DNA from: a virus
Virus record (IMG/VR): IMGVR_UViG_3300036772_000211
Location: 1 to 64,000 of that record
Length of the DNA stretch: 64,000 nucleotides
Strand: one strand, 5' to 3'
Part shown: positions 1 to 28,706 of the stretch, piece by piece
How the letters are laid out: each line of letters begins with the position of its first letter
Numbering within the stretch: the stretch's first letter is position 1
Notes under the pieces: model-generated
Told to the model about the DNA's origin: nothing
Databases searched by the model: none
Seen by the model: only the letters and a program-made list of their open reading frames with translations
Made by a program: the position numbers and the translations under genes

Positions 1-2
1 TG

Positions 3-659
3 CAGAACCTGCATCTCGACGGCGGAAGCGTCGGTACGACCGGCGTCAAGGTACTGTCTGGCCAGAGTGGCGGCATGGACGGCGTCAGCTTCACGAACTT
101 CACTAGCTGGACAGCGTCCTTCAGCTGCATGGCGCCTGCCGAGACTGGCGTCATGGCAGGGATCAATACCAACACCGAGCACAACATCTACCGCAATATC
201 CACTTCCTGTTGTCCGCATTGAACAACGCTGCGGGCATCCTCTGGACGGGTGCTGGCGAGCCGGCGAACACCATCACGTGTGGCACCTCGAACGAACTCT
301 GGGAGCAGGTCAGCATGACCTTCACGCCAACCAGTGGGAAGTTGTCGTACGGCCTGTACTACCAAGTGTGCGCGGAGGTGGTCATTCGCAACCTCCGCTT
401 CCTCAATGCCGGCGCTACCCAGAACGGTGCGATCACCAGTGTCATCGACTACGACTACACCCTCGGCCAGAGTCTTTATCCCTCTGACAACCTGATCGAC
501 ACCGTCGACTTCCAGACGAACAACATCAGCATCATCAACTCGGGCCTGCCTGCCTCCTCGTCCAACAACAAGATCGTCAATATCTGCTCGCATGCTGGTC
601 GACCACCGAATCCCAACCTGATCGGCCTGGCCTGGGGTTACTCGAATGCCAGCCCGTAA
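3..659 (+). CDS. Tail spike / beta-helix-like virion protein, 5' end cut by window edge
   Basis: The reading frame is open from base 3 without a start codon, so the gene begins left of the window; 218 codons are visible. The protein is rich in Asn, Gly, Thr and Ser with short beta-strand-like repeats, and resembles the C-terminal half of parallel beta-helix spikes. It is followed after 9 bp by the next virion gene with a strong Shine-Dalgarno (aaggagg). Role in receptor binding or polysaccharide cleavage is inferred from composition and position beside other tail genes. No catalytic residues can be assigned. Confidence 0.6.
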   Translation, partial: QNLHLDGGSVGTTGVKVLSGQSGGMDGVSFTNFTSWTASFSCMAPAETGVMAGINTNTEHNIYRNIHFLLSALNNAAGILWTGAGEPANTITCGTSNELWEQVSMTFTPTSGKLSYGLYYQVCAEVVIRNLRFLNAGATQNGAITSVIDYDYTLGQSLYPSDNLIDTVDFQTNNISIINSGLPASSSNNKIVNICSHAGRPPNPNLIGLAWGYSNASP

Positions 660-8198: not shown

Positions 8199-8395
8199 AC
8201 TGGTCGGCCATCGTCTGGCTCACGTGGCTGGGTTCGTTTGTCGTGCTTGAGGGAGCAGCAATCAGCGGCAGAGTGCCCTGGACGACGCTGAGCGTTTATA
8301 CGTGGATGCTCGAATCGACTGACGGCGTGGTGCGGTGGGTGCTGCTCATTGGCCTGGCAGCGCTACTGACGCACCTCGTGGCGAAGTGGCCCTAG
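8195..8395 (+). CDS. Holin-like small membrane protein, 66 aa
   Basis: The GTG start overlaps the endolysin stop (GTGA). Two hydrophobic segments (residues ~5-25 and 43-62) with a TTLS-x-W turn and a C-terminal THLVAKWP. This is the pattern of a widespread phage membrane protein placed beside endolysins. It ends the rightward lysis cluster; the next gene is on the other strand and its stop overlaps here. Confidence 0.6.
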   Translation: MNWSAIVWLTWLGSFVVLEGAAISGRVPWTTLSVYTWMLESTDGVVRWVLLIGLAALLTHLVAKWP

Positions 8396-8658
8396 CCAGG
8401 CGCTTCGAGCAGGTCGCGCGGCTCGCATTCAAGCGCGTCTGCGAGCTTGCGGACGGTAGATGGTAGGGCCTCGCCGCCGTTCTCCAGGCGAGTAACAGTG
8501 AACCGCTGGACGCCAGCACGCTTGCCAAGCTCTTCCTGCGACAGCGCGGCCAGGTGGCGCGCTCGCTTTAGGCCGGGCAGTTTGACCAATCTGACGTCAA
8601 TCGTACCGTCAGCGTCCCCCGGAAGCACAGTCACGTCTATATCGCGAGGTCGAGTCAT
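8392..8658 (-). CDS. XRE-type helix-turn-helix repressor beside the secretion-like cassette, 88 aa
   Basis: Residues ~30-80 form a lambda-type HTH (LSQEELGKRAGVQRFTVTRLENGG), with a short N-terminal arm. The chosen ATG at 8658 lies 6 bp after a TACAAT box, so the mRNA is probably leaderless. The gene is divergent from the VirB6-like gene at 8705, with a 46-bp gap holding a CAATGCATTG palindrome. It probably represses itself and the secretion-like operon. It is distinct from the CI-type gene near 31 kb. Confidence 0.7.
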   Translation of the reverse strand: MTRPRDIDVTVLPGDADGTIDVRLVKLPGLKRARHLAALSQEELGKRAGVQRFTVTRLENGGEALPSTVRKLADALECEPRDLLEAPG

Positions 8659-8704
8659 CAATGCATTGTATGTCCGTGGTGCGTTTGCTGTATGCTGGCT
8701 GTGC
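8658..8704. promoter_or_regulatory. Divergent promoter region with CAATGCATTG palindrome
   Basis: On the minus strand TACAAT (8670-8665) is followed by 6 bp and the ATG of the HTH gene. On the plus strand TGTATGCT (8689-8696) is an extended -10-like box 8 bp before the ATG at 8705. The perfect 10-bp palindrome CAATGCATTG (8658-8667) covers the leftward start site and is a likely operator. The -35 boxes are poor on both strands. Confidence 0.45.
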
Positions 8705-9706
8705 ATGATGAAGTGGCTCGCCTGGCCGGTGGGGGTGGTGGCTGCGCTGGTCGTGGTGACGGCATACGCGCAGGGCAACCCCATCGTGACCGCGCCACCG
8801 AGCAGCAGCAGCACCTCGACGCACATAGACGTGACTGTCCAGGCACCCCCAGAAGATCCGAAAGCAATCGCGGAGGCAGCGACGCAGTCGTCAGACGCGG
8901 TGATCGTGAATGTGCTCGCGCCGATTCCGGTGGGCTTCGTCAAGGGAGCTATCGGCAGCTTCCCGAACGTGTGGACGCAGACGCCGCCGAACCTTACTTA
9001 CGCCAACGGCGATCTGTCGCGGCTGGCGGGGGTAGTGCGGGATGGATCGCTGGCGCTGAGCGGCCTGGCGGTCTTCGCGCTCGGTATGAAGCTGGCGTTC
9101 ACGCGCACGGCGCCGACGGGGCGACTGCTCTTCGGCGTGGTGATGTGTCTGGGCAACCTTGTCTGGTGGAAGGTCGGCATTGACCTGAACAACGCGATCA
9201 ACCAGCAGATCAGCGCGCCGACGTTAGCCAGCCTGCTCAACCCCGGCATGACGCTCCCGAAGGTCGCGGATGGGACCATCCCCACGCCAGACATCGTCGC
9301 CAGCGCTGTGCTGGCCGCGGTCTTCGCGGTTGTCGGATTCCTGACGATGTTCAGTCTGCTTGCGCGGCTGGCGCTGATCGACATCCTGATCGTCGTCGGA
9401 CCGCTCGCGCTGATCTGTTTCGCATCAGAAGAGTCGGCCAGCTGGGGCACGATGTACGCGCGCACGGCAGTGGGGCTGACGTTCAGCCAGGTGCTGATCA
9501 CGGTCGCGTTCCTCGTGGCGAAAGTACTGGGCGTCCTGGGCACCTCCGGCGTGCTCGGGGCGATCGTGGGCATCGCGGTGCTGCTGACCATTCGCGGCCT
9601 GCCGAGCCTGATGGCATCCGGTCGTATGACGGCTGGGCCAAGCAACAGCGCGGCGTTCGGCGCCATCCTGGCGTTCGGTCGCCGCGCACTGGGGCTACTG
9701 ATCTGA
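8705..9706 (+). CDS. VirB6/TrbL-like polytopic membrane protein, 333 aa
   Basis: Signal-peptide-like N terminus (residues 1-24, ending AYA-QG), an extracytoplasmic stretch to ~95, then five or six transmembrane segments (about 108-126, 134-152, 195-238 as a double segment, 258-282, 286-306). VirB6/TrbL proteins form the inner-membrane channel of type IV secretion systems and have this build. ATG 8705 is chosen (8708 also possible). Its stop overlaps the next start (ATG at 9706). First gene of a seven-to-nine-gene cassette ending at 14624. Assignment rests on topology and neighbours. Confidence 0.55.
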   Translation: MMKWLAWPVGVVAALVVVTAYAQGNPIVTAPPSSSSTSTHIDVTVQAPPEDPKAIAEAATQSSDAVIVNVLAPIPVGFVKGAIGSFPNVWTQTPPNLTYANGDLSRLAGVVRDGSLALSGLAVFALGMKLAFTRTAPTGRLLFGVVMCLGNLVWWKVGIDLNNAINQQISAPTLASLLNPGMTLPKVADGTIPTPDIVASAVLAAVFAVVGFLTMFSLLARLALIDILIVVGPLALICFASEESASWGTMYARTAVGLTFSQVLITVAFLVAKVLGVLGTSGVLGAIVGIAVLLTIRGLPSLMASGRMTAGPSNSAAFGAILAFGRRALGLLI

Positions 9707-10314
9707 TGGGCTGGATTGCAGGCGCCGCGGGCGCGTTCTTTGGGATCTTCCTGATGTTCTGGGTCGGCTTCACCACCCAGCCGTGGTCGCCGTGGTGGAT
9801 CTCCGGCGGCAGCCAGGACCAGACGGTAGCCGGCGGCGGCGACATCAGCCTGCCAAGCTTCAGCGTCCCATCCGGTGGCGCTCTGCCGCCTATCTCGGAC
9901 GCGCCCGCTCCACCTGTCACAGCTGGTCATGTCAGCGACGTGCAGCGCTTCCAGCTGATCGAGGCAGCTGGAGCTTCGCCACAGGTCGCGATCGTCATGA
10001 CGGCGCTGAGCATCGCCGAGGATGGCTCGGGCGACCCGTCCATCGTCGGTCCCCCCAACCGTGACCATTCGGTCGACAACGGACTCTGGCAGGTCAACAG
10101 CGGGCACATCGGGCAGTGCGGCATCACCAGCCAGCAGTGGCTCTTCGACCCGATGAACAACGCGCGGGCTGCCATGTGCATCCTGGGGCCTGGGCTGAAC
10201 TACTGCGCCTGGTCGACGTTCGAGGCTAGCTGCGGTGCGGGTCATACGGGCGCGTACCGCGCGTTCATCGCGGGCGCGACGTTCATCGCGCAGGGGCAAA
10301 CATGGCAGCACTGA
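9706..10314 (+). CDS. Membrane-anchored lytic transglycosylase/lysozyme-like protein (VirB1-like), 202 aa
   Basis: N-terminal membrane anchor (residues ~4-22), a Gly/Pro-rich linker, then a lysozyme-like domain from ~85. The sequence ALSIAEDGSGDPSIVG supplies the expected catalytic Glu, and NGLWQVNSGHIG (about 125-137) is the goose-type/SLT signature. Three or more Cys may form disulfides outside the cell. In conjugation systems such an enzyme locally opens the wall for the channel. It is separate from the endolysin at 6930, supporting a role in channel assembly rather than lysis. Confidence 0.65.
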   Translation: MGWIAGAAGAFFGIFLMFWVGFTTQPWSPWWISGGSQDQTVAGGGDISLPSFSVPSGGALPPISDAPAPPVTAGHVSDVQRFQLIEAAGASPQVAIVMTALSIAEDGSGDPSIVGPPNRDHSVDNGLWQVNSGHIGQCGITSQQWLFDPMNNARAAMCILGPGLNYCAWSTFEASCGAGHTGAYRAFIAGATFIAQGQTWQH

Positions 10315-10571
10315 TCGCGCTTCTGATGGTGGCTCAGCAGCTGCTGAGCGTTCCTGGGTTCCTCACCGAGATCGTGCCAGGCGACCTCGATACGACAGTG
10401 CTGCAGGTCGACCAGACCAGCTACGAGATCGCGTTCGGACCAGGGTGCGAGGACTTCCAGCCCGGAATGGACGTGCTGGTGGAGGCAGGAAGCGGCGGCG
10501 TGGCCACGCTTTACGACGACAGCGGAAGCGGGCAGTGCAACGTGCTGATCGGAGCACCGGTCGGCGAATGA
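10302..10571 (+). CDS. Small exported protein of secretion-like cassette, 89 aa
   Basis: Starts at ATG 10302, overlapping the previous gene by 13 bp. Hydrophobic signal-like N terminus (residues 1-18) followed by a beta-rich acidic domain with two Cys (FGPGCEDF and GQCNV) that could pair outside the cell. No family recognised; context suggests a surface component of the channel. Confidence 0.5.
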   Translation: MAALIALLMVAQQLLSVPGFLTEIVPGDLDTTVLQVDQTSYEIAFGPGCEDFQPGMDVLVEAGSGGVATLYDDSGSGQCNVLIGAPVGE

Positions 10572-10677: not shown

Positions 10678-10887
10678 ATGTTCGGTCCTATCGTCAACAT
10701 CCTGAATCAGATCCTGACGTCGGCTCAGCCAATCATCGCGCCACTGATCGGCCTGGCGCTGCTGATGTACGGCGCCATCCTGGCGGCTGGCAACCACGCC
10801 AAGGCGCGCGAGGGCATCATCTGCGCCATCATCGGCGGTGCCATCATGCTCGGCTCACAGCAGATCGCTGCGGCGATCCATCCGTAG
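10678..10887 (+). CDS. VirB2/TrbC-like pilin candidate, 69 aa
   Basis: ATG 10678 sits 5-6 bp after GGGAGG. Two hydrophobic helices (residues ~18-35 and 44-64) are joined by a short basic loop (NHAKAREG), and the second carries IIGGAIMLG. This two-helix hairpin with a small polar loop is typical of VirB2/TrbC pilins. The gene lies just before VirB3-like and VirB4-like genes, the classic order. It is shorter than most pilins and lacks an obvious signal peptide. Confidence 0.5.
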   Translation: MFGPIVNILNQILTSAQPIIAPLIGLALLMYGAILAAGNHAKAREGIICAIIGGAIMLGSQQIAAAIHP

Positions 10888-10888
10888 T

Positions 10889-11479
10889 GTGCGAGACGAT
10901 GAGCAGCCAGCCGTCTACATCGTTCCGACCGAACTCGGCCGCTCGGATGCATTCAACGACCTGGCTTTCCTGGCAGTATCGTTTCTGGTCATCTGGTGGC
11001 TGTTCCAGCGTGGGCTGCCATTGTGGACAGGCGCCGTGGTGCTGCCCTTCGTGGCGATTGAGACGCTCACTTCTGAAGCTGCCGAGTCTGTCGCGTGGGT
11101 CGGCGATTTTGCGCAGGTACTGCGGATGGTCTTCGGCCACAGGCGGGCGCACGAATGGGCTTTAGCTTTCGGCCATCACGTGCAAAGCGTGACGTGGCGC
11201 CGGTGGAACCATCGTGCCAGGGCACGCTGGAGATCACTCCTACGTCGAACGCTCCGATGGGTTCGGCGGCAGAACGCGAGGACGCGGCGGATGCTTTCGC
11301 GCGCGTGCTCATGGGCCTCAGCTACCCGCTCCAGATTGTCAGCCAGGCTCGCGAGATCCAGAACCCGCCGGAGTGGCGCAAGCCACCCCGTCTCCGTCGA
11401 CGCTGGCTGGCTGTCTTACGCGGCAAAGATGCGGCGGAACGGGACTGGCGACTCCGAACACTCGAAGAGTCGCTCATAG
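10889..11479 (+). CDS. VirB3-like membrane protein candidate with long overlapping C-terminal frame
   Basis: GTG start one base after the pilin stop. Residues ~10-75 match the VirB3 layout: a short polar start (YIVPTELGRSDAFN), a hydrophobic segment (AFLAVSFLVIWWLF), then a second one. From ~95 on, the frame overlaps the VirB4-like gene by 325 bp and becomes Arg/Ser-rich, as shadow frames do. Either the tail is really translated or the functional product is the first third. VirB3 normally sits immediately before VirB4, as here. Confidence 0.4.
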   Translation: MRDDEQPAVYIVPTELGRSDAFNDLAFLAVSFLVIWWLFQRGLPLWTGAVVLPFVAIETLTSEAAESVAWVGDFAQVLRMVFGHRRAHEWALAFGHHVQSVTWRRWNHRARARWRSLLRRTLRWVRRQNARTRRMLSRACSWASATRSRLSARLARSRTRRSGASHPVSVDAGWLSYAAKMRRNGTGDSEHSKSRS

Positions 11480-12930
11480 GAGTAGGGCTGCATGCCAGAG
11501 TGGCTGATCCAGGCGACGTCAGTGGACATGCGAGGCGTGTTCATTCTTCTTTTGCTTTCGTGGACGGTGACCCTAACCCTTATCACGGTACGCTGGTGCT
11601 CCGACGATGGCCGCGAGAAGTCTCAGTCGGATGGCTCGGCAACGCTACCGCGGGGGAACTCCCCATCGACTGGGCGATGCATGTCCGCCCAGAGGACGCG
11701 AAGGCGGTAGCGCGCTACCTGAAGCGCCAGCAGTCCTGGCAGAGCGACCAGTACAGCCTCAAGCCTGACGCGCACAACGCGCTCGGGCGCCGCGACGCCC
11801 AGGAGACACAGCGCAAGCTGATCGCGGGCACTGATCGTCCGGTGAAGGTTGCTGTCGCGTTCACGGTGGCAGCCCCGTCCGAAGCAGAGTTGAAGGTGCG
11901 GATGGAAACAGCGCGGCACCAGATCGGCCTCACGCTGGGTGACGCTCGCGCGGCACGCTGGGAGATGGCCCGTGGCTACCAGGCGACGTCACCCGAAGGG
12001 GTCTGCGACCTGCTGGGCGCGTGGCGACGGCTGGACTGCACGTCGGTAGCTTCGGCGTGGCCATTCATGCCGGCCACGGTGTGGCACGAGCACGGCGCAC
12101 CGCTGGGCACCACCCACAAGGGTGCGATGGAAGTGCGGCTCGATCCATTCGATGAGTCGCTGGAGAGCTTCGGTGGTCTGATCCTGGCCAAGGTCGGCGC
12201 GGGCAAGAGCTACCTGCTCAAGCTGCTGACACTGCGGTTGCCAGATGTCGAGATGCTCATTGTCGAACAGCGCAACCCACCTGAATACCGCGGGATGCGA
12301 GCGACGACGATCAACCTGGCCGACCACGAGTACCACGAGCGAGCCGCGAAGCTGCGCGAGTTCGTAGAGAACATCTGGGAGACAGCCAAGCGCGACCCGC
12401 GCCCGCGACTGCTGGTGCTGGACGAGTTATGGAGCTTGCTGCTGGATGGCAACATGGCGCGCCTCGTAGAAGAGATCGCGCGCATCGGCAGGCACCACTA
12501 CCTGAGCATGTGGATTGCGACGCAGCAGGTACAGGAAATGCTGGGCAGCCAGGAGCGCCCGTGTCGTGAGGGCCGCGCGGTGCTCGACAATGCCGCCATC
12601 CGCATCTTCCTGAAGCAGCACGACCGCGACCTGGCGAGTATCGCCGATGCGGTTGGCCTGTCGAAGACCGCGCGGCGGTACGTTCGTTCGGCAGCCCGCG
12701 GGCAAGCGCTCCTGAGCGTGAATGACTTACTCGTCCCGGTTGACATTCAAGCAACAATGCGGGAGCATCAATTAATCTCAACCGACCCCCGTGAACGCCA
12801 TGCTGCTGCTACGAATCCCCTGGCTGATCCTGAAGGTGACCTTCCTGATTCTCTGGAAGGTGCTGGTGGTCCTTGGGTTCCTCGTGGTCGCACTGGTGAT
12901 CCTGTTGGACTCGGGGCGTCCGCAGGTTGA
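11155..12930 (+). CDS. VirB4/TraC-like secretion ATPase, 591 aa
   Basis: ATG 11155 is chosen. The N-terminal half has the VirB4 order (DAFARVLMGLSYPLQIV, then a long alpha/beta region). Walker A is AKVGAGKS near 344-351; Walker B is RLLVLDELWSLL near 417-428; the conserved RxGRHxxLSxWxATQQ block follows. VirB4 ATPases energise channel and pilus assembly in every type IV secretion system. It is shorter than the usual ~800 residues, mainly in the N-terminal half. The last ~45 residues are unusual and overlap a small membrane ORF in another frame. The stop overlaps the next start (TTGA). Confidence 0.85.
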   Translation: MGFSFRPSRAKRDVAPVEPSCQGTLEITPTSNAPMGSAAEREDAADAFARVLMGLSYPLQIVSQAREIQNPPEWRKPPRLRRRWLAVLRGKDAAERDWRLRTLEESLIGVGLHARVADPGDVSGHARRVHSSFAFVDGDPNPYHGTLVLRRWPREVSVGWLGNATAGELPIDWAMHVRPEDAKAVARYLKRQQSWQSDQYSLKPDAHNALGRRDAQETQRKLIAGTDRPVKVAVAFTVAAPSEAELKVRMETARHQIGLTLGDARAARWEMARGYQATSPEGVCDLLGAWRRLDCTSVASAWPFMPATVWHEHGAPLGTTHKGAMEVRLDPFDESLESFGGLILAKVGAGKSYLLKLLTLRLPDVEMLIVEQRNPPEYRGMRATTINLADHEYHERAAKLREFVENIWETAKRDPRPRLLVLDELWSLLLDGNMARLVEEIARIGRHHYLSMWIATQQVQEMLGSQERPCREGRAVLDNAAIRIFLKQHDRDLASIADAVGLSKTARRYVRSAARGQALLSVNDLLVPVDIQATMREHQLISTDPRERHAAATNPLADPEGDLPDSLEGAGGPWVPRGRTGDPVGLGASAG

Positions 12931-12940
12931 CCTACGTTGA
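12800..12940 (+). CDS. Overprinted single-span hydrophobic ORF, 46 aa
   Basis: An ATG-initiated frame lies across the end of the VirB4-like gene and the start of the VirD4-like gene. It encodes an almost continuous hydrophobic helix (WLILKVTFLILWKVLVVLGF) with a short polar tail. In the same bases the VirB4-like frame encodes a low-information Pro/Gly-rich tail, so selection may act on the hydrophobic frame. It could be a small membrane subunit, or chance. Confidence 0.35.
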   Translation: MLLLRIPWLILKVTFLILWKVLVVLGFLVVALVILLDSGRPQVDLR

Positions 12941-14624
12941 GCCGACACGCGCTCTGCTAGCTGGCGCGTGGGCTGAGCCTGCGACTCGACTCCCACTGGT
13001 TCTCCTGGCCATAGGAGTCTTCTTGTTGCTCTTCTGGCGACCTGGCCAGCAAGGCGCCCAGCAGCGCTCGAAGCTGCAGACAGAAGAGCGAGACGTCAGG
13101 CGTCCGACGAACACCGTGTGGTGGAAGCGCTGGTGGTGGAAGCTGCGCCCGCCTGTGGACACGATGGCTGTCGACGGTCTGGTGATCGAGCGCACCGGGC
13201 GCCGCTCGCACTGCCTGTGGCTGGGACCGACCGGCGCAGGCAAGAGCCAGAGCGTAGCCACGGTACGGGTGAATCACCAGCGGCCCATGCTCATCGTCAC
13301 GCCAGACCTGAGCGACCCCTTCATTCCGCTCGCGGACTTCCACTGGACAGCTGGCGGCAAGCGATCGGTGGACTTCCTGATCGGCACGCCCGAGCAGGTA
13401 GCCGAGCGGCTGACTGAGGTCTTCCGCAGCGGTGGCAATGGCGTGTGGAAGATGACCGCCAGGCGCGCGGTCACGGCCATCATCTACGTGCTCGATTCGA
13501 TGCGCGAGCCGCGGACGCTGCAGGCGATCGGCGAGATGCTGGCCGACGAGGTGAAGGATGACCGCGAGCTACGCACGGCGTGTGCTGGCTGGGTGGAGCG
13601 GTTCCTGTCGACGGCGCAGCAGTTCGGGGAGAGCATCGGCGCCGGTGGCGTGGACGTCGCCGAGCTTCTGCTGCAAGGCAAGACGGTGCTGCTGGACAAC
13701 GATGCCTTCGCTCACCCCGGCCTGGTGGGCGACGTGGTCGCGTTCGGGCTGGCTGAGGCCAAGCGCTGTGCTGACCGCGTGCCTGGCGGCTTCCGCCTGA
13801 TTTTCGAGGAGGCTGGCCAGCTTGGCGATCGCATCGACCTGGCCGATCCCTTCTTCCGCGCGGGTCGACGGCGGCGCATCGCTGTAGATGCCCTCACACA
13901 GGCAGAAAGCGACCTCAATGACGCGATTAGCCAGAATGCGGCCACAAGGGTGTATTTCAGCCAGGAGCTTCAGAACCTCCAGAAAGCGGCCGCAAATCGC
14001 CTGTCTATGGACTGGCACGATCTGGACCCCGCGGTGATGCAGGACTTCACAGCGTGGATCACCAGTGGCAAGATCCGCCGCCTTGTTCACTTCCCGAAGC
14101 CCAGGAATGCACGTCCACCTGTGACGGTGGGCATCTCCTACGAAGCTACGGATGGACGTTCACAGGTGGACGTGCGTCTGGTGGTGACCGAACAGAAGCG
14201 CTGGAAGGGCACAGGCGAAGCGGTTGACGTCGAATGGAACGGACCAAGAATGCTGCCGCCTCCGCAGGTACGGTTTCAGAAGCTCGTGGACGGGGCCTAT
14301 CGGGATGGGGCGTGCTTACGGTGGAAGGCTCATCTGCGGCATGACAAGGATGGCTATGGCGAGGTGTGGATCGACGGGGAAGGTCGGTACATGAAGGTGC
14401 ATCGTCTGGCCTACGAGCTTGCGTATGGAGCGATCCCGCGGAACCCTGACGGAACGACCATGACGGTTGACCATCTGAGCGGGGTGTGCCAGCACAAGGA
14501 TTGCTTCGAGCTAACGCACCTCGAACTGGTGACACGTGCAAAGAACAGCAGTAGACGGCAGGCCGCTGCGAAGGCTCGGCCGAAGGCTGGGGGGTCTGGG
14601 GGGAGACACGCCGGGATTGGCTGA
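12927..14624 (+). CDS. VirD4/TraG-like coupling ATPase fused to C-terminal HNH endonuclease, 565 aa
   Basis: TTG start coupled to the previous stop. A membrane segment (residues ~20-38) is followed by an ATPase: Walker A GPTGAGKS near 100-107, Walker B-like LIFEEAGQL near 290-298, and a late ATRVYFSQ block. This build matches coupling proteins that bring DNA or protein to the channel. From ~450 the protein switches to an HNH domain: MKVHRLAYELAYG, then TVDHL-x-GVCQHKDCFELTHLELVT, with the HNH His/Asn-type and Cys positions recognisable. The frame is continuous; a basic tail follows. An HNH fusion on a coupling ATPase is unusual. Confidence 0.75.
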   Translation: MTYVEPTRALLAGAWAEPATRLPLVLLAIGVFLLLFWRPGQQGAQQRSKLQTEERDVRRPTNTVWWKRWWWKLRPPVDTMAVDGLVIERTGRRSHCLWLGPTGAGKSQSVATVRVNHQRPMLIVTPDLSDPFIPLADFHWTAGGKRSVDFLIGTPEQVAERLTEVFRSGGNGVWKMTARRAVTAIIYVLDSMREPRTLQAIGEMLADEVKDDRELRTACAGWVERFLSTAQQFGESIGAGGVDVAELLLQGKTVLLDNDAFAHPGLVGDVVAFGLAEAKRCADRVPGGFRLIFEEAGQLGDRIDLADPFFRAGRRRRIAVDALTQAESDLNDAISQNAATRVYFSQELQNLQKAAANRLSMDWHDLDPAVMQDFTAWITSGKIRRLVHFPKPRNARPPVTVGISYEATDGRSQVDVRLVVTEQKRWKGTGEAVDVEWNGPRMLPPPQVRFQKLVDGAYRDGACLRWKAHLRHDKDGYGEVWIDGEGRYMKVHRLAYELAYGAIPRNPDGTTMTVDHLSGVCQHKDCFELTHLELVTRAKNSSRRQAAAKARPKAGGSGGRHAGIG

Positions 14625-22330: not shown

Positions 22331-22618
22331 TCAGTTGGAGTGGGAAGCTTCCCACTCCGCGAATCGGGAAGCGAAGCTAGCGACTGCATCACGCCAGCCT
22401 TGCTCGAACTCTGTGCCCGCGACCTCGGCGATGCGACCCTCGCCAGCTTCGATAGCCTGCCGACCGATCTCGCGTCGGTCGGCGATTACGTTGGCGAAAT
22501 TCCCCAGACAAGCCTTGCGGCCGAAGTCTGTCCTGAGCGATTCAAACAATTCCTGGTTGCTGATGGCGCGCGCCTGGCGGGCGCGGGCGAAACGGCGAGC
22601 GGTGCTGTTCTTGTTCAT
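22331..22618 (-). CDS. Hypothetical early protein, first gene of leaderless operon, 95 aa
   Basis: The ATG at 22618 is chosen because a sigma70-type -10 box ends 7 bp before it, so the transcript should start at or one base before the ATG. Longer upstream readings run through the promoter. The protein is basic at the N terminus (NKNSTARRFARARQARAIS) and helical; probably nucleic-acid-binding. Not recognised. Confidence 0.6.
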   Translation of the reverse strand: MNKNSTARRFARARQARAISNQELFESLRTDFGRKACLGNFANVIADRREIGRQAIEAGEGRIAEVAGTEFEQGWRDAVASFASRFAEWEASHSN

Positions 22619-22625
22619 CACGTCT

Positions 22626-22666
22626 AATGTACTCCATACGTGCATGACTGTCAATAGGGTGCATGC
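22626..22666 (-). promoter_or_regulatory. Leaderless promoter with GCATG(C) operator sites
   Basis: TTGACA (22654-22649), 17-bp spacer, TACATT (22631-22626), then 7 bp to the ATG. The spacer contains GTCATGCACG, and a GCATGC (22661-22666) lies exactly 6 bp upstream of the -35 box. The same layout occurs at 23.3 and 24.7 kb. There is no Shine-Dalgarno. Confidence 0.75.
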
Positions 22667-22674
22667 CTGCAATA

Positions 22675-22893
22675 CTAGGTGCCGGCACGCAGGCTGAGTG
22701 ATTCGACCCAGCACCCTCTCCCGCTAGCAACGATCACGTTCGCGGTGAAGTAGCCGTTCTGGTAGCCCCAGAGTCGCCAGTGGCCGGCATGACGGTCCCA
22801 CGTGTCGACGCGATAGCCTCGCTTGCCCGACGTATAGACCAAGCGAAAGAGGCGGGCTGGCGGGCCGTGGACGGCATAGAGTTCATTGCTCAT
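22675..22893 (-). CDS. Hypothetical early protein, 72 aa
   Basis: ATG overlaps the upstream stop (ATGA). Aromatic and Gly-rich, likely a small beta-sheet protein (RVDTWDRHAGHWRLWGYQNG). Last gene of the operon starting at 23251. Confidence 0.55.
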   Translation of the reverse strand: MSNELYAVHGPPARLFRLVYTSGKRGYRVDTWDRHAGHWRLWGYQNGYFTANVIVASGRGCWVESLSLRAGT

Positions 22894-23045
22894 CGTGGTG
22901 CCTCCTGGCGGATCTTGGCGCGGTCGCGGCTGGCAGCCAGCCGATCGAGGGTGAGCAGGAACGCGCGGCTCGTGGTTGGCGTGTGGCGAGCCTTCGAGCG
23001 GCGTTGCTCGCGCCGCTCGCTCTTGAACTGGGGTGCTCGGCTCAC
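22890..23045 (-). CDS. Small highly basic protein, 51 aa
   Basis: GTG start overlaps the upstream stop (GTGA). Very Arg/Lys-rich (RREQRRSKARHTPTTSR), probably DNA- or RNA-binding. Overlaps both neighbours by 4 bp. Confidence 0.5.
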   Translation of the reverse strand: MSRAPQFKSERREQRRSKARHTPTTSRAFLLTLDRLAASRDRAKIRQEAPR

Positions 23046-23251
23046 CGCATCACCTTGCGCAGCGAGGCTGGCAAACGGTACTGCTGACCGCACGCCATGC
23101 AGTCCACCACCTGGCCGATCTGCTCGGGCTTGAAGTTATGCATCGAGAGCAGCTGGCTGCCGTCCTCGGTGCCGTCGTAGCTCTCGCCGCAGGTCGGGCA
23201 GTTGGCGTACATGGCGGCGATCTCTGTTCTGGCGCTCGGGATGCTTGGCAT
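23042..23251 (-). CDS. Zinc-ribbon protein, first gene of leaderless operon, 69 aa
   Basis: ATG 23251 lies 6 bp after the -10 box, so it is read from a leaderless mRNA. CPTCG near residue 18 and CMACG near 51 form a four-Cys zinc ribbon. Role unknown; likely nucleic-acid or polymerase contact. Confidence 0.65.
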   Translation of the reverse strand: MPSIPSARTEIAAMYANCPTCGESYDGTEDGSQLLSMHNFKPEQIGQVVDCMACGQQYRLPASLRKVMR

Positions 23252-23257
23252 GTATCC

Positions 23258-23298
23258 AAGATATAGCATGCGCGCATGCTTGTCAATACCCTGCATGC
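23258..23298 (-). promoter_or_regulatory. Leaderless promoter with 16-bp palindromic operator
   Basis: TTGACA (23286-23281), 17-bp spacer, TATCTT (23263-23258), 6 bp to the ATG. The spacer holds the perfect palindrome AGCATGCGCGCATGCT. A further GCATGC (23293-23298) begins 6 bp upstream of the -35 box. A repressor bound here would cover RNA polymerase contacts on both sides of -35. Confidence 0.8.
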
Positions 23299-23303
23299 AC
23301 GAC

Positions 23304-23942
23304 TTACTCACCCGGCGCGATGCAGACAAGGAAGTACGAGTGCCGCTTCCTGGCATGAACCTGCTGCTTGATGCGGCCTGTCGACGGGTGGTCTGGCCTG
23401 ACGACGACGACCAGATCCTTGATGTACCAGCCGCCGCGCTGCAGATAGCCGATGAGTTCGGCGTGGGTGAGCCACTGCCGATGGTTGCTGACCTCGTCCT
23501 GGCATTTGAGGATCAGCACGCCGCTGGGCCTCAGCACGCGCTGTGCTTCGCGAATGCCACCCTCGTACAGCGCCAGCACTGCCGCGTGGTACTTGGGACC
23601 AGTGCCGTCTACGAACTGCTCGTCTGAGTAGCGTTCCCGAAAATCACCGTGGCTGATCGGCACTTGGTGTGCCTGGTTATGGAAGCCTGACATGTACGGC
23701 GGATCGAGCACGAGGCAGTCAACGCTGCCGCAGACGTACGGCAGCTGGCGGAAGTCGGTGCCGGTGCGGATGTCGGTGGCCAGGAGGTCGTACGTGCCTG
23801 GTGGCACCTGCTTCCAGAACGTGCCACGCCCATAGGTCACATCAGCCACGCGCGCGCCGCGCGGCACGTGCAGGTCGAGAATGCGCTTGAACACTGGCGC
23901 GTTGTGCGCCACGTACGCGGAGTACAGCGGCTCAGTGTTCAC
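23304..23942 (-). CDS. DNA methyltransferase (adenine-N6 or cytosine-N4 type), 212 aa
   Basis: The AdoMet site VADVTYGRGTFW (residues ~32-43) and catalytic DPPY (near 80) are clear, and a late ILKCQDEV strand fits the Rossmann fold. The target sequence cannot be read from the gene. No matching restriction enzyme is seen, so it is a solitary enzyme, likely for evading host restriction or marking DNA. It overlaps the upstream gene by 4 bp. Confidence 0.8.
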   Translation of the reverse strand: MNTEPLYSAYVAHNAPVFKRILDLHVPRGARVADVTYGRGTFWKQVPPGTYDLLATDIRTGTDFRQLPYVCGSVDCLVLDPPYMSGFHNQAHQVPISHGDFRERYSDEQFVDGTGPKYHAAVLALYEGGIREAQRVLRPSGVLILKCQDEVSNHRQWLTHAELIGYLQRGGWYIKDLVVVVRPDHPSTGRIKQQVHARKRHSYFLVCIAPGE

Positions 23943-24700
23943 TTCGTGAACCCCTTCCTCGCCAGCCAGGCGGCGATGTCGTAGTCGCGGCTGCCCTTGA
24001 ATACGACGCTCTCGGCGCCGTTGTCGTACGCGACCTCCGCGGCGTTGTCCTGGGCAACGGTGGGCATGACTGGCGCGTCTTGTCGGTCCTGACTGACTGG
24101 GGCTGCCATCAGGTCGGCAGCCGTGGTGCCCTCGGGGAAGCGGAGGATGCAGACGGGGCCGATGCCGCGCGCCACGCTGTCAGCTGCCTTGAGGCGGCGA
24201 CCGCACCAGGCGCAGATGCCGTACAGTGTGCTGAAGCGGAGCGCTTCGTCGCGGCTCATCTTGCGGCCTTCGCTCAGAGCGACCGACTTCAGCTGCGGCG
24301 CGTACTGGTAGTCGCCCTGGCTGCGGTTGTTCTTGAGGGTTTCGGGGTCGATCTCCTCTGTCAGGCGGTAGCCCGAGATGTGCTGCCAAGCCATCGCGTA
24401 GCTGCCGGTCTTCTCAGCATTGGTCTTGATCCGGACGATGTCGCTGCTCGGGAGGACGTACACGCCGCACTCGGCCAGCATGGTCTGGAAAGCCATCCAG
24501 GCGTCGTAGCTGGCGTCGTCGGCGTCGCGGCTGGCCGCCACCATCACTGGCTGGTAACCGCTGCGCTGCTCGAAGTGAGCCGTGGTCGGGCAGACGAGGT
24601 GGGTGGCTGGATTGCCCTTCGTCCACTCGACGTTCTCGCGAGGCTGGATGCGGATGCTGCAGTTCGGGCAGACGCTGGAGAACTTCGCTTCGATGACCAT
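23939..24700 (-). CDS. Zinc protein with DUF6011-like domain, 253 aa
   Basis: ATG 24700 follows the -10 box by 6 bp (leaderless). N-terminal CPNCS...C zinc site, a helical middle, then CAWCGRRLKAADSVARGIGP-x-C (near residues 165-188), the hallmark of DUF6011-type domains in phage proteins. A C-terminal Pro-rich stretch is followed by DYDIAAWLARKG. Function unknown; cotranscribed with the methyltransferase. Confidence 0.65.
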   Translation of the reverse strand: MVIEAKFSSVCPNCSIRIQPRENVEWTKGNPATHLVCPTTAHFEQRSGYQPVMVAASRDADDASYDAWMAFQTMLAECGVYVLPSSDIVRIKTNAEKTGSYAMAWQHISGYRLTEEIDPETLKNNRSQGDYQYAPQLKSVALSEGRKMSRDEALRFSTLYGICAWCGRRLKAADSVARGIGPVCILRFPEGTTAADLMAAPVSQDRQDAPVMPTVAQDNAAEVAYDNGAESVVFKGSRDYDIAAWLARKGFTK

Positions 24701-24706
24701 GTACGT

Positions 24707-24747
24707 AGTATGAGGCATGCATGCATGCTTGTCAATACATTGCATGC
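24707..24747 (-). promoter_or_regulatory. Leaderless promoter with GCATGCATGCATGC operator
   Basis: TTGACA (24735-24730), 17 bp, CATACT (24712-24707), 6 bp, ATG. The spacer carries GCATGCATGCATGC (24715-24728), and GCATGC (24742-24747) lies 6 bp beyond the -35 box, the same spacing as at 22.65 and 23.29 kb. Confidence 0.8.
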
Positions 24748-24757
24748 ACGGGTTTCT

Positions 24758-24988
24758 CTATGCCGGCGAGGTGAGTTCGAGCATCCAGATCGCGAGCGCG
24801 TGCTTGCGCCCGCAGGCGGCACGCCAACCGATGAACCCGCCGTCGGCGTTCACCCAGCCATAGACGCTGGCGCAGCGCTTATCGCAGCCGGGTTGCGCAC
24901 ACCAGTACGCGTGGTCCAGGCTGCGCGGGCGCTTCATGCGCAGTAGCTCTTCGCCCGTGGCGAGCTTGTAGGTGAACAGGCGGGCCAT
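24758..24988 (-). CDS. Cys-containing small protein, 76 aa
   Basis: ATG overlaps the upstream stop. WCAQPGCDKRC (near residue 29) with a later AACGRKH suggests one zinc site. Last gene of the chain that begins at 26411; stops just before the next promoter region. Confidence 0.55.
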   Translation of the reverse strand: MARLFTYKLATGEELLRMKRPRSLDHAYWCAQPGCDKRCASVYGWVNADGGFIGWRAACGRKHALAIWMLELTSPA

Positions 24989-25185
24989 CAGGCTGTCCTG
25001 AACCCGATGTCGCTGGCCTGCCAGCTGGCGCCCTGGTCGTGCGAGACGTACAGCACGCCCGACAGCCAGCCCGTCATGAACGGGTGGCCGACGTAGCTGC
25101 TGGCGTCCTGAATGCAGGTCACGAGGTGGCCCGTGCGCAGGCGCACCGTGGTCGGCGTCTCGAAGCTGCCTTGCGTCGGTTTCAT
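24988..25185 (-). CDS. Hypothetical early protein, 65 aa
   Basis: ATG overlaps the upstream stop (ATGA). Beta-rich small protein (VRLRTGHLVTCI; GVLYVSHDQGASW). No family recognised. Confidence 0.5.
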   Translation of the reverse strand: MKPTQGSFETPTTVRLRTGHLVTCIQDASSYVGHPFMTGWLSGVLYVSHDQGASWQASDIGFRTA

Positions 25186-25487
25186 GCGATCTCCTGAGCG
25201 TGCAGCCGACCGTCTTCAGTGATACGGCAGGCGTACTTGCCGAGCTTCGGCTCCCATTCGATCCAGCCCTTACGCTCGAAGCTGCGCAGGGTGGACGCAT
25301 CGCCGCTGCCACTGGCCCAGAACACGAACGACTCGTGTCCGATGCTGAAGTATTGGCCCCGGCCGTCGAGTGACGGCAGCCACGCTGCGCCCTCGAACGC
25401 AGCGCAGCGCTGCTCGATCAGCAGCAGGAATTGATCGGCGCGCGTGAGCGCCCGCCCGTCAGCGTCCCGCGGTACGTTGCCGTTCAT
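25182..25487 (-). CDS. Possible winged-helix protein, 101 aa
   Basis: ATG 25487 overlaps the upstream stop (ATGA). The C-terminal ~45 residues (TLRSFERKGWIEWEPKLGKYACRITEDGRLHA) read as a helix plus wing of winged-helix proteins, the TEDGR end being typical. Possibly an early transcriptional regulator; partners unknown. Confidence 0.5.
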   Translation of the reverse strand: MNGNVPRDADGRALTRADQFLLLIEQRCAAFEGAAWLPSLDGRGQYFSIGHESFVFWASGSGDASTLRSFERKGWIEWEPKLGKYACRITEDGRLHAQEIA

Positions 25488-25948
25488 CGCGTGTACTCCG
25501 CGACATTGCACTTGCCCTGGCACTCGTCGCCATTCAGGCAGCCGTCGTGATCATTGGCGCCGCAGTGCGGGCACTCGACGGGAATCTCAGACTCCATTAG
25601 TTGCTCCTCTCGTTTCGCCGCCCACCACTCGCGTTTCCGCTGGGCGATCTTTTCTCGGCGCTCTGCCGACTGTGGCCCCAGGACCAGGCCGCGGGGTCCA
25701 CGTAGCCGCCCCTTCTGGGCGGCGTCTCTGGCGTTGATTAGGCGCGTGCCCAGGAACAGGTGGTCAGGCTCGAAGCACGGCGGGTTGTCGCACGTATGGC
25801 AGATCTCCATGCCCGCGGGGATCTGACCATGGATCGTGGCCCATACGAACCGGTGGACGTACTGGAGCTTGCCGCCGCGACCCCCAATGCGGATCTGGCC
25901 ATAGCCGTTCTTCGAACGCGCTCGAAGCCACTCGCGACAAGGCTTCAC
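25484..25948 (-). CDS. HNH endonuclease fused to a C-terminal Cys cluster, 154 aa
   Basis: GTG start overlaps the upstream stop (GTGA). Residues ~25-75 carry an HNH_3-like core: YVHRFVWATIHGQI, then EICHTCDNPPCFEPDHLFLGT. After a basic helix, the last ~38 residues (VECPHCGANDHDGC...CQGKC) hold a separate Cys-rich module starting at an internal Met. The HNH part may be a homing-type insertion fused onto a pre-existing small zinc gene. Confidence 0.7.
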   Translation of the reverse strand: MKPCREWLRARSKNGYGQIRIGGRGGKLQYVHRFVWATIHGQIPAGMEICHTCDNPPCFEPDHLFLGTRLINARDAAQKGRLRGPRGLVLGPQSAERREKIAQRKREWWAAKREEQLMESEIPVECPHCGANDHDGCLNGDECQGKCNVAEYTR

Positions 25949-26139
25949 GGGCGCGGCCGGAGCAGCGCCATAGCCTCTTCGACTGCGAGGCGGGTTTCAG
26001 CTTTGATGCGGCTCGGGGCCGAAGTATCAAAGCTGTTGAGGTAGAGGTCCGCGGCCTCTACGGCTGCGGCCAGCACCTTGACCATGTCGGTGATCTCGCT
26101 GAGCTTCTCAGCGGCGATGCGGCTCTGCTCGTTGTCCAT
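25945..26139 (-). CDS. Small helical protein, 64 aa
   Basis: ATG at 26139. All-helical (EQSRIAAEKLSEITDMVKVL). Stop overlaps the HNH gene start. No family recognised. Confidence 0.5.
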   Translation of the reverse strand: MDNEQSRIAAEKLSEITDMVKVLAAAVEAADLYLNSFDTSAPSRIKAETRLAVEEAMALLRPRP

Positions 26140-26141
26140 GA

Positions 26142-26411
26142 CTAGTTCCTCCGGTCGTTCGGGAATGACTTGGCGGCTCGGCCGTTGAGCACCGCGAGCG
26201 CGTCGCGCGCTACCTGCAGCACCTCGGGGGCCTGGTCGATCTTCGGTAGCTCGAACGCCATCACCTCAAGGAAGGCCCAGCAGTAGCGCCCCTCGGCGCC
26301 GGCCTTGCAGGAGCAGGGGTGCTCCATGTCGATCGGCGCCAGCGTCACGGCGTCGAGGTGAATCACGTGCGTCACGCCACCGGAGCGGCTCGGGCGAGTG
26401 AAGGTTTTCAT
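26142..26411 (-). CDS. Small protein with SWIM-like Cys motif, first gene of leaderless operon, 89 aa
   Basis: ATG 26411 lies 7 bp after the -10 box. CSCKAGAEGRYCWAF (near residues 33-47) resembles the C-x-C...C core of SWIM zinc fingers but lacks the usual final His. May bind DNA or protein. Heads a chain of six overlapping genes ending at 24758. Confidence 0.55.
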   Translation of the reverse strand: MKTFTRPSRSGGVTHVIHLDAVTLAPIDMEHPCSCKAGAEGRYCWAFLEVMAFELPKIDQAPEVLQVARDALAVLNGRAAKSFPNDRRN

Positions 26412-26418
26412 TACCGTC

Positions 26419-26447
26419 ATTATGGGGCATGCATGAATGCATGTCAA
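26419..26447 (-). promoter_or_regulatory. Leaderless promoter with GCATGCATG operator
   Basis: TTGACA (26447-26442), 17 bp, CATAAT (26424-26419), 7 bp, ATG. The spacer contains GCATGCATG and ATGCAT. No upstream GCATGC is present here, unlike three of the other promoters. Confidence 0.75.
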
Positions 26448-26494
26448 TAGGCAATCTCAGCGCCAGCGTCTACGAGGCGATCGAGCCTCGGCCA

Positions 26495-26701
26495 TTACCG
26501 CTCATCCACCGGCAGCACGCGCACGTCTTCGCGCTCGCCGGCCGGTCGACGGCTGTACTCTTCGTCGGTCGCATGAACGATCACACGCGTCATGTGAGTG
26601 CGGCAGTACGGGCGGTACTCACCGAACGGAACCGCGACTAGATAACGTGCAGCTAGCCCGCACTCACTGGCACCGAGGATGTATCGGCAGGTCGTCATCA
26701 T
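26495..26701 (-). CDS. Small Cys/His protein, 68 aa
   Basis: ATG overlaps the upstream stop (TGATG). CRYILGASEC near the start and YCRTH near 36 form a Cys3-His zinc-type site, a common build for phage early proteins. Acidic C-terminal half. Confidence 0.55.
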   Translation of the reverse strand: MMTTCRYILGASECGLAARYLVAVPFGEYRPYCRTHMTRVIVHATDEEYSRRPAGEREDVRVLPVDER

Positions 26702-26859
26702 CAGTTGGCCTCCTGTTGCTCGCGCAGCGCCTTCTCCTCGGCGTAGCTGCGCCGTATCTCGACGTACCACCATTCGCGCTCCTCGGCGGTCAGAAAATCC
26801 CAGTTCGGCGGGACGCGCCCGGTGCGCGCCCACGCCTCGATCCATTCCTTCAGGTCCAT
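26701..26859 (-). CDS. Short Trp-rich helical protein, 52 aa
   Basis: ATG at 26859 shares a base with the upstream stop; its own stop overlaps the next start. The sequence starts MDLKEWIEAWARTGRVPPNW and ends with a charged helix. Function unknown. Confidence 0.55.
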   Translation of the reverse strand: MDLKEWIEAWARTGRVPPNWDFLTAEEREWWYVEIRRSYAEEKALREQQEAN

Positions 26860-27425
26860 CAGTTGGCCTCCTCGTGGATGGGATCGGTTTTCTCATTGCC
26901 GCAGCTGCCACACATGCTGACGATCTCTGGCCGACCGAACAGACGGTTCTGGCCATTCACCCAATCGATGTCCCGCTGCGGCGCCCTGGTGAACGTGTGC
27001 GGGTGGTAGGGGCGGCAGGTTGAGCAGTAGTCGCTGGTCTTGCTGGCGCGGCCGTCGCACGGTCGACCGTTCCAGTCGCTGCCGGCGCAGTGCTTGATCG
27101 ACGCCTGCTTGGCGGCTTCCTTGGCTGCCTTCGCGGCCTGGCGCTCCGACTCCTTGAGAGCGGTGGTCTGGTAGCCAGCGACGCGCTCGGCGCACTTGGC
27201 CAGTCGGCGAGCCTCGAAGGCTGGGTTGCAGGTTGGGCACTGTGTCTCGGCCTGGTCAGCGTGGTAGCCGTCGAGGTGCTCGTTCTCGTAGCCAGCGCTA
27301 TCGAAGCAACCGCTGCACAGGCGACCCGTCTGGCTGTCCTGGCGATCGGCCCAGCTGCGAACTCCGCAGAACTCGCAGACCTTGGTGCCGCGGTTGTCGA
27401 GTCCGAATCGGGTGGGGTTCTGCAT
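26859..27425 (-). CDS. Multi-Cys zinc protein, first gene of leaderless operon, 188 aa
   Basis: ATG 27425 is 6 bp after the -10 box. At least four Cys pairs: CEFCG, CSGC, CPTCN, CSTC near residue 142 and MCGSCG near 175. A Lys/Ala-rich helix lies in the middle. Probably binds several zinc ions and nucleic acid or protein. No specific family recognised. Confidence 0.6.
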   Translation of the reverse strand: MQNPTRFGLDNRGTKVCEFCGVRSWADRQDSQTGRLCSGCFDSAGYENEHLDGYHADQAETQCPTCNPAFEARRLAKCAERVAGYQTTALKESERQAAKAAKEAAKQASIKHCAGSDWNGRPCDGRASKTSDYCSTCRPYHPHTFTRAPQRDIDWVNGQNRLFGRPEIVSMCGSCGNEKTDPIHEEAN

Positions 27426-27431
27426 ACACGT

Positions 27432-27460
27432 AGTATCGCTCATGCATGCATGCATGTCAA
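27432..27460 (-). promoter_or_regulatory. Leaderless promoter with 16-bp CATG repeat operator
   Basis: TTGACA (27460-27455), 17 bp, GATACT (27437-27432), 6 bp, ATG. The spacer is almost entirely CATGCATGCATGCATG (27441-27456), a perfect palindrome reaching into the -35 box. Confidence 0.8.
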
Positions 27461-27480
27461 TAGGTTTCTAGAATGAGATC

Positions 27481-27536
27481 GGCAGGCCGGCAGCCGTGAG
27501 AACGCCAATCCGCGCGTGCTAGCCGCCGGCCCTGCC
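27481..27536 (-). repeat. Inverted repeat after the 28.6-27.5 kb operon, possible terminator
   Basis: GGCAGGCCGGC (27481-27491) pairs with GCCGGCCCTGCC (27525-27536), leaving one unpaired base and a 33-base loop. It lies immediately after the stop at 27538 on the minus strand. No U-run. It fills the only gap between this operon and the promoter at 27460. Confidence 0.4.
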
Positions 27537-27537
27537 G

Positions 27538-27732
27538 TCATGGCCGCGACTTGACGACGCGACCCGTGAACGACACCAGCACGGTGTAATCGTTGTCGCC
27601 CTTCTGGACGCTGTGCTGGCAGCCCTGCAGTAGGTTCAGCGCCAGGCGGTACGCCTCATACGGCGACAGCTTCAAGTCGATCAGGTCGCCGTGGTCGGCG
27701 TGGTTCGAGTCGAAGATCACGGTGTGAGACAT
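27538..27732 (-). CDS. Hypothetical early protein, 64 aa
   Basis: ATG overlaps the upstream stop (shared base at 27732). Alternating strand-helix-strand (TVIFDSNHADHGDLIDLKLS, then a helix, then YTVLVSF). Its pattern resembles the neighbour at 28222, suggesting related small folds. Confidence 0.5.
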   Translation of the reverse strand: MSHTVIFDSNHADHGDLIDLKLSPYEAYRLALNLLQGCQHSVQKGDNDYTVLVSFTGRVVKSRP

Positions 27733-28028
27733 CAGCTGGCCACCTCCGCGGGCGTGACCATGTCCTCCAGCAGCTTGACGCGGTCAGCTGGCAGGTTGCG
27801 AGCGGTCACGATGGCCACGGGCTTCCTGTCGGAGTACCAGCCCCCCATCCCGTTGATGTTCACCTCGGTGCCGTCTGGGAAGGCGAGCACGTAGTGTGGC
27901 GTGCGGTCGGCGCGGAACCGGCCGCGGAAGCCGGACTTCGCGCGAGCGAGCGCCTGGTCGGCGGAAGCTGGGTTGTCACGGTCGTTGGAGAAACCCCAGG
28001 ACTGGTCGGTGATGGCGAGGTAGATCAC
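27732..28028 (-). CDS. Hypothetical early protein, 98 aa
   Basis: ATG overlaps the upstream stop (ATGA). Mixed alpha/beta small protein with WGFSNDRDNP near the start and YVLAFPDGTEVNINGMGGW in the middle. No family recognised. Confidence 0.55.
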   Translation of the reverse strand: MIYLAITDQSWGFSNDRDNPASADQALARAKSGFRGRFRADRTPHYVLAFPDGTEVNINGMGGWYSDRKPVAIVTARNLPADRVKLLEDMVTPAEVAS

Positions 28029-28225
28029 GAGTGCTCCTCTGGTCCGATGCGGACCCCTTCAAGGCTGAACCAGCCGATCAGTTCGTTCAGCGTGTCCATA
28101 CGCACTTCGAGTGTTCGGGCGTAGCGGGCAGTCGCGGTGTGCTCGTATTCCCGCTGGAGCCGATCGCGGCGAGAGACAAGCTCTTCGATGACGCCCGCCT
28201 TACCGGCGATGATGGTGACGCTCAC
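28025..28225 (-). CDS. Small helical protein, 66 aa
   Basis: GTG start overlaps the upstream stop (GTGA). Mostly one long helix pair (VIEELVSRRDRLQREYEH; RTLEVRMDTLNELIGWF). Possibly dimerising by coiled coil. Confidence 0.5.
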   Translation of the reverse strand: MSVTIIAGKAGVIEELVSRRDRLQREYEHTATARYARTLEVRMDTLNELIGWFSLEGVRIGPEEHS

Positions 28226-28416
28226 GACTTCACTCCGTTGGCAGCCAGGTTGCCGACCAGGCGCGCGGCCTGGTCGCGGGTCATGCGGACCTGAAACACC
28301 GACTCTTTGTCCGCGAAGCTGATCTCTAGCTCGTCGGCGCTGATCGTTCGGGCGCCGATCGCGATGTTGCTCTGCGCGGTGTTGAGCCAGACGGTCTGGC
28401 TGGTCGGCAGGCTCAT
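28222..28416 (-). CDS. Hypothetical early protein, 64 aa
   Basis: ATG overlaps the upstream stop by one base. Beta-hairpin then helix (ELEISFADKESVFQVRMTRDQAARLV). The build resembles its neighbours at 28416 and 27538, so these may be diverged copies. Confidence 0.5.
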   Translation of the reverse strand: MSLPTSQTVWLNTAQSNIAIGARTISADELEISFADKESVFQVRMTRDQAARLVGNLAANGVKS

Positions 28417-28646
28417 CAGTTGGCCTCCGGCTCCGGGGTGTTGACGAGAACTTCCTGCAGCTGACGGATGATCTCGGGCAGCTGGTCACGGGTGAAGGTC
28501 AGGCGCACGAGCGCTGGCGAGTGCGAGTCCTGGGTCGGCGTCTCGCGGAACCCGTACGAGCGGATCGTGGTCTGACCGCTGACTGGCTGGTAGTTGACGA
28601 CGGCGCCCGTCGAGAAGAACTTGTAGCGGGTGGGGGTCTGCTGCAT
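28416..28646 (-). CDS. Hypothetical early protein, first gene of leaderless operon, 76 aa
   Basis: ATG 28646 is 6 bp after the -10 box GATAAT. Beta-rich front half and a helical end (LVRLTFTRDQLPEIIRQLQEVL), like the 28222 product. Divergent from the RHH gene at 28704 with a shared control region. Confidence 0.55.
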   Translation of the reverse strand: MQQTPTRYKFFSTGAVVNYQPVSGQTTIRSYGFRETPTQDSHSPALVRLTFTRDQLPEIIRQLQEVLVNTPEPEAN

Positions 28647-28706
28647 GCATGCATTATCGCTCATGTTTGACTATGCTGTCAAGAGCGTATATGGTGGTCA
28701 TGCATG
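28643..28706. promoter_or_regulatory. Divergent promoter pair with GCATGC sites at both start points
   Basis: Leftward: TTGACA (28682-28677), 18 bp, GATAAT (28658-28653), 6 bp, ATG 28646. Rightward: TTGACT (28667-28672), 17 bp, TATGGT (28690-28695), 8 bp, ATG 28704. The promoters overlap face to face. GCATGCATGCAT (28643-28654) and CATGCATG (28699-28706) lie over the two start sites, so one repressor could silence both. Confidence 0.75.

Follow-up and report, generated by a model that had tools for sequence, protein, structure and literature searches.

What would a tailed phage do with a membrane-anchored DNA motor that carries its own nuclease? The question is raised by an open reading frame at 12927..14624 on the plus strand of the IMG/VR record IMGVR_UViG_3300036772_000211, which is 64,960 bases long and of which positions 1-64,000 were analysed here (the window). 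In the first-pass annotation this frame was read as a VirD4-like ATPase fused to an HNH nuclease, and with no relaxase visible it was proposed that the HNH could supply the nick or cut that makes DNA transferable.

The window belongs to a temperate tailed phage

The first 127 bp of the window (1-127) are repeated directly at L004 4834-4960, which places the repeat at both ends of the 64,960-bp record. This terminal repeat is apparently the mark of a circular assembly, with the genome complete and circular at 64.8 kb, and an end repeat as in a circular assembly is likewise found in one of the related contigs described below (G005). We assign the genome to a temperate tailed phage because its products include a terminase, a primase, an integrase, a large virion protein carrying a lytic domain and a major capsid protein. 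This capsid protein is akin to the one in Bacillus Page-like podophages, and the phage is podophage-like. The true large terminase subunit (TerL) is encoded at 40741 and matches phrog_38. Elsewhere, at ~22500-28700 on the minus strand, many short ORFs have similar starts (MQCIDKHACMP, MHACMSDTTCM, MSDNACMQ), which suggests a repeated DNA element before these genes.

A motor ATPase and an HNH module share one reading frame

The frame at 12927..14624 is single and unbroken over 565 codons, starts with TTG and encodes a 565 aa protein (P0001), a fusion of a VirD4/TrwB/HerA-class motor ATPase and an HNH_3 nuclease. The TTG overlaps the stop codon of the upstream virB4 gene by 4 bp (NTGA), and the same overlap is present in four of five cassettes, namely those of the window and of three IMG/VR contigs (G003, G004 and G005); because it recurs in three of the four homologues, both the TTG start and translational coupling of the two genes are supported. 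Hydropathy indicates an N-terminal transmembrane helix at residues 19-37 (12981..13037), present in all five homologues, and this is followed by a Walker A motif, GPTGAGKS, at residues 100-107 (13224..13247), nearly invariant among the five, and a Walker B-like motif, RLIFEEAGQL, at residues 290-299 (13794..13823), which is also kept. The ATPase had been thought to end near residue 445, but the conserved motor ends at about residue 395, with a variable linker (9-33% identity among homologues) covering residues 396-441 (14112..14249) and the HNH nuclease module running from about residue 442 to 565 (14250..14621).

Relatives of this protein were found only with patterns taken from alignments. 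Single-protein pattern scans with P0001, VirB4 and the capsid protein returned no relatives from viral and genome contigs, and the motor had no match in the phage and plasmid records searched by tblastn. When the genes located after VirB4 on three plasmids were compared with P0001 by BLASTP, no useful match emerged; the one on a Chloroflexota plasmid lacks a motor domain, and a scan of genome contigs with a VirB4 alignment yielded one fragment. Patterns built from an alignment of P0001 with one distant plasmid VirD4 retrieved two true relatives, and further alignments two more. A last scan used the ATPase part alone and, because its query contained nothing else, was unbiased towards HNH carriers; it returned the same four relatives again and none without an HNH.

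These relatives lie on IMG/VR phage contigs of 78, 58, 55 and 61 kb (G002, G003, G004 and G005, respectively). Their motor cores are 62-69% identical to that of the window, and in all four the HNH is attached at the same joint in an unbroken frame. Five independent phage contigs thus have the same architecture in open frames, which argues against chance and led us to reject a frameshift or a missed stop codon as the source of the fusion. Homologues in which the HNH is always a separate insertion or the frame is disrupted would have refuted the first-pass annotation; all five are fused in open frames, and both the fusion and its unusual nature hold up. Because the same attachment occurs in four other, quite different phages, the joined motor and HNH appear, from their sequences, to be a conserved device and no accident.

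The fusion closes a compact T4SS-like cassette

The fusion ends a compact T4SS-like gene cassette at ~8.7-14.6 kb, in the order TrbL/VirB6-like protein, SLT transglycosylase, VirB2/TrbC pilin, PrgI/VirB3-like protein, VirB4, tiny membrane protein and motor-HNH protein, all on the plus strand. The first gene encodes a VirB6/TrbL-like membrane protein of ~6 helices (8705..9706). Next come a VirB1-like lytic transglycosylase (SLT_3) that has a membrane anchor at its N terminus (9706..10314; PF18896, E 1.8e-12), a small ORF to which no role was assigned (10302..10571) and a VirB2/TrbC-type pilin-like protein with two helices (10678..10887). The pilin and the TrbL-like protein of the window were assigned by homology to the cassette proteins of the relatives; across the family, the best Pfam E-values among cassette proteins were 3.9e-12 for TrbC, 1.2e-16 for SLT_3 and 8e-4 for TrbL_4, the last from one scanned cassette protein. 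A further two-helix protein (10889..11479) is putatively PrgI/VirB3-like by look and position; it has homologous ORFs in L064, L065 and L067 and no Pfam match, and its 3' end, which overlaps virB4, is uncertain. Just upstream of the cassette a divergent ORF (8392..8943, minus strand) contains a Cro/CI-type helix-turn-helix sequence and is a possible regulator of it.

The VirB4-like ATPase is encoded at 11155..12930, with a start between 11155 and ~11203. It matches the VirB4 crystal structure 4ag5 (E 1e-16) and the CD1110-type VirB4 family model (E 1e-18), and its middle part is shortened. PHROG family phrog_2666, labelled 'terminase large subunit', also matches this protein (E 1.7e-16), but we rejected a terminase role in view of the true TerL at 40741 and the matches to VirB4 structures; some members of phrog_2666 may be mislabelled. 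A weaker match to CedB (E 0.0015) bears on the idea of an archaeal Ced-like importer, in which the cassette would pull DNA into the cell for the HNH to process on arrival. Such a reading would suit a small set of pilin, channel, VirB4 and motor with no relaxase found, but VirB4 matches conjugation ATPases more strongly and import offers the phage no clear benefit, and we regard it as very unlikely. Between virB4 and the motor gene, overlapping the end of the one and the start of the other, lies a tiny ORF for a one-helix membrane protein (12791..12940). Tiny hydrophobic ORFs in this position were observed in four of the five cassettes, including those of G002, G003 and G005 (L064 3028-3174, L065 9823-9948 and L067 9733-9873), and may encode a small accessory membrane protein.

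In all four relatives virB4 lies directly upstream of the motor-HNH gene, most of them also have TrbL-like, transglycosylase and pilin-like genes, and the order TrbL, SLT, pilin, VirB4, motor-HNH is conserved across the family. From their gene content G002-G005 look siphophage-like; they encode a head maturation protease, a tape measure protein and/or another type of terminase, and the TerL and capsid protein of the window have no match in them. As they possess terminase, head protease and tape measure genes of their own, we rejected the idea that the cassette belongs to the structure of a single virion type, and because it is carried both by these siphophage-like contigs and by the podophage-like window, it evidently moves between virion types. 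Within the cassette of G004 (L066 7557-9884) the motor-HNH protein is 54% identical to that of the window, while the 775 aa VirB4 is only ~24% identical, and on this basis exchange seems to affect each of the two ATPases independently.

Protein secretion or antagonism towards neighbouring cells, with the HNH in a side role, is a further conceivable use of such a cassette, and nuclease effectors delivered by T4SSs can kill competing cells (PMC11253643). Here the HNH is tied to a membrane motor instead of forming a separate effector, and the cassette yielded no candidate effector-immunity pair; we consider antagonism the least probable of the readings weighed.

The motor is of the TrwB/FtsK/HerA class

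None of the five family members matched the VirD4 family models T4SS-DNA_transf, TrwB_AAD_bind and TraG-D_C at E-values up to 1. In Pfam the window motor reached only E 0.14 with AAA_10, which matches four of the five members weakly (best E 1.1e-3), and DUF87/HerA gave one weak match (E 0.13) in one member of five. A structural model predicted by AlphaFold from the single sequence was of no use (pLDDT 36), and a model from the alignment of the five homologues had low overall confidence (mean pLDDT 47), with residues 120-290 mostly at 60-91. When this low-confidence model was compared with the PDB using Foldseek, TrwB was the top match (E 0.003-0.01, prob about 1.0), ahead of DndH, HerA and the VirD4-like Cag-beta, and VIA-align gave Z-scores of 11.9 for DndH, 11.7 for TrwB, 11.2 for VirB4, and 9.9 for both HerA and Cag-beta. 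The predicted fold is thus RecA-type and of the TrwB/FtsK/HerA class, at a resolution too coarse to tell VirD4 apart from the sister motors HerA, DndH and VirB4.

The motor does have VirD4-type features, namely the N-terminal membrane helix (5/5) and a gene position next to VirB4 and further T4SS components. What stands of the first-pass label 'VirD4-like ATPase' is therefore the motor class, the anchor and the VirB4 linkage, and what does not is a separation by fold from HerA, DndH or VirB4. The protein is VirD4-like by membrane anchor and gene context with VirD4 family membership unproven, and since the VirD4 Pfam models are silent and the fold scores are similar across the sisters we use the label TrwB/VirD4/HerA-class motor.

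Another reading is superinfection exclusion or defence, in which the membrane motor of a lysogen would grip incoming phage or plasmid DNA and the fused HNH would cut it, much as HerA- and DndH-type motors act with nucleases. DndH and HerA, antiphage complexes of HerA among them, match the model with scores similar to that of TrwB, and PADLOC gave a weak HerA match to the motor (E 1.9e-4, over 35 residues only). The cassette also lies near integrase and helix-turn-helix genes in G003, and beside the helix-turn-helix ORF in the window, as is often so for cargo associated with lysogeny. A pure defence motor, however, needs no VirB2-type pilin, transglycosylase, TrbL-like channel or VirB4, and no self-protection partner was identified. 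We judge defence to be rather unlikely as the whole explanation, if clearly the strongest competitor to relaxase-free DNA transfer.

The nuclease module is complete and conserved

By sequence, the C-terminal module belongs to the HNH_3 / phage HNH endonuclease family. HNH_3 (PF13392) matches residues 490-541 with E 1.4e-7 and 31.5 bits, above the curated cut-off of 24.8, and PHROG HNH families cover residues 441-550 (E 5e-20). Every residue that is invariant among ten free-standing phage HNHs is kept in the fused module, and the residues H516, C521, C526, H531 and N540 are invariant in those ten and in all five fusions, which answers the earlier query over catalytic-residue conservation in homologues; the middle Asn column of the HNH is variable across the whole HNH family.

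The HNH parts are 33-63% identical among the five fusions, against 55-78% for the motor cores, and G004 and G005 have the closest motors (77.9%) yet HNHs that are only 33% identical. In a phylogenetic tree four fused HNHs group together (89/80) and that of G005 is placed elsewhere on a long branch, with a single origin of the fused HNHs not rejected (p-AU 0.164). Because of the disparity between G004 and G005, the nuclease has either been swapped once or diverges fast, and the two-part architecture persisted either way; exchange or fast divergence would also suit the changing targets of a defence function. Third codon positions of the HNH part vary more than first and second positions in most pairs, a sign of purifying selection in those pairs, and the G004-G005 pair has no such contrast.

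A mobile homing-type HNH gene might instead have joined the motor gene at its 3' end as an idle passenger that contributes nothing to the machine. The domain does belong to a family of free-standing phage HNHs, a second such gene lies in the same genome outside the cassette (25484..25948, minus strand; 40% identity to P0001 residues 462-553), the fused module has its own Met at residue 442, from which a free HNH could be translated, and G004 and G005 have very different HNHs beside similar motors. A neutral passenger should, however, sometimes be lost, and the joint, the open frame and the invariant catalytic residues are the same in all five divergent phages; as the fusion persists in every one of them, we think an idle HNH improbable. 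G003 likewise has a free-standing HNH gene beside its fusion (L084 9930-10595, minus strand), and the free-standing genes in the window and in G003 are possible donors for domain exchange.

Relaxase searches

Relaxases were sought with six Pfam families. The models PF03432, PF08751, PF02486 and PF03389 found none in the five records and their controls worked, while PF13814 and PF01076 were searched with controls that stayed silent. The earlier statement that no relaxase is visible therefore stands for the four families with working controls.

Discussion

In temperate tailed phages with at least two types of virion there is a T4SS-like cassette whose motor and conserved HNH form one polypeptide. 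Most likely this cassette, with its ATPase of a DNA-motor class and a built-in predicted nuclease, acts on DNA at the inner membrane. For the way in which it might do so we propose that a hexamer of the motor would sit at the cytoplasmic mouth of a channel formed by the VirB6/TrbL-, VirB3- and VirB2-like proteins, with VirB4 supplying the power and the SLT enzyme opening the cell wall. HNH domains on flexible linkers would nick or cut DNA, on which the motor would load, and the motor would then drive this DNA through the channel, giving a relaxase-free transfer of phage or neighbouring DNA.

In this reading a motor-nuclease working on DNA at the membrane is better founded than export as the direction, which is the weak point. 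We infer relaxase-free transfer as the leading mechanism, with destruction of incoming DNA as a close rival, and hold the whole reading, in which the motor-HNH protein and channel export DNA nicked or cut by the HNH, to be plausible but somewhat short of probable. An HNH could not replace all functions of a relaxase, because no pilot protein stays covalently attached to the DNA end. That the phages own a relaxase-free transfer machine in which one membrane protein both cuts and pumps, providing a second, cell-to-cell route of spread, is the more ambitious form of the proposal and is doubtful.

Several known systems share parts of this design. As in TrwB and VirD4 (R388 TrwB, PDB 1e9r and 1gl6; the best Foldseek matches), there is an N-terminal anchor and a RecA-type motor with Walker A and B motifs, and the motor gene directly follows virB4, likewise in an Embleya plasmid cassette; unlike them, the window motor has one membrane helix, a C-terminal HNH, no VirD4 Pfam match and no relaxase found. 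With the HerA and DndH systems (HerA-NurA, SIR2-HerA and DndH) it shares a motor superfamily (Z 9.9-11.9) and the logic of motor plus nuclease, but here the HNH is in the same polypeptide, there is a membrane helix and the setting is a T4SS-like cassette. Gram-positive plasmid and ICE T4SSs (PrgI-VirB4-VirD4) have the same CD1110-type VirB4 and the same order of VirB4 then VirD4, whereas the window cassette is phage-borne and very compact, with a short VirB4 middle, no relaxase found and a nuclease on the motor. Free-standing HNH_3 proteins (PHROGs 826 and 1872) correspond over the whole module, including the CxxW stretch and the invariant His, Cys and Asn, but in the window this module is the C-terminal domain of a membrane motor.

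Among phages, Bacillus phage G gp155 and SPP1 gp32 are likewise VirB4/TrwB/FtsK-like ATPases, and for gp32 a transmembrane translocon has been suggested (PMC6316719). In contrast with the window, each is a lone ATPase that has neither a pilin nor a transglycosylase beside it and no fused HNH. The VirB4-like ATPase of phage G (gp155-gp157, L003 7581-12225) has the same shortened middle and adjoins an MsbA-like gene, and a separate HNH gene lies two genes downstream of it. A full-text search of the open-access literature found no published VirD4-HNH fusion or coupling-type motor with its own nuclease.

To our knowledge, descriptions of T4SS-like machines on tailed phages hardly go further than lone ATPase genes. 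Should this machine move DNA, phage spread and conjugation would be joined in one element, which would show how transfer can begin without a relaxase; if the cassette instead destroys incoming DNA, it would be a new type of prophage defence assembled from components of secretion systems.
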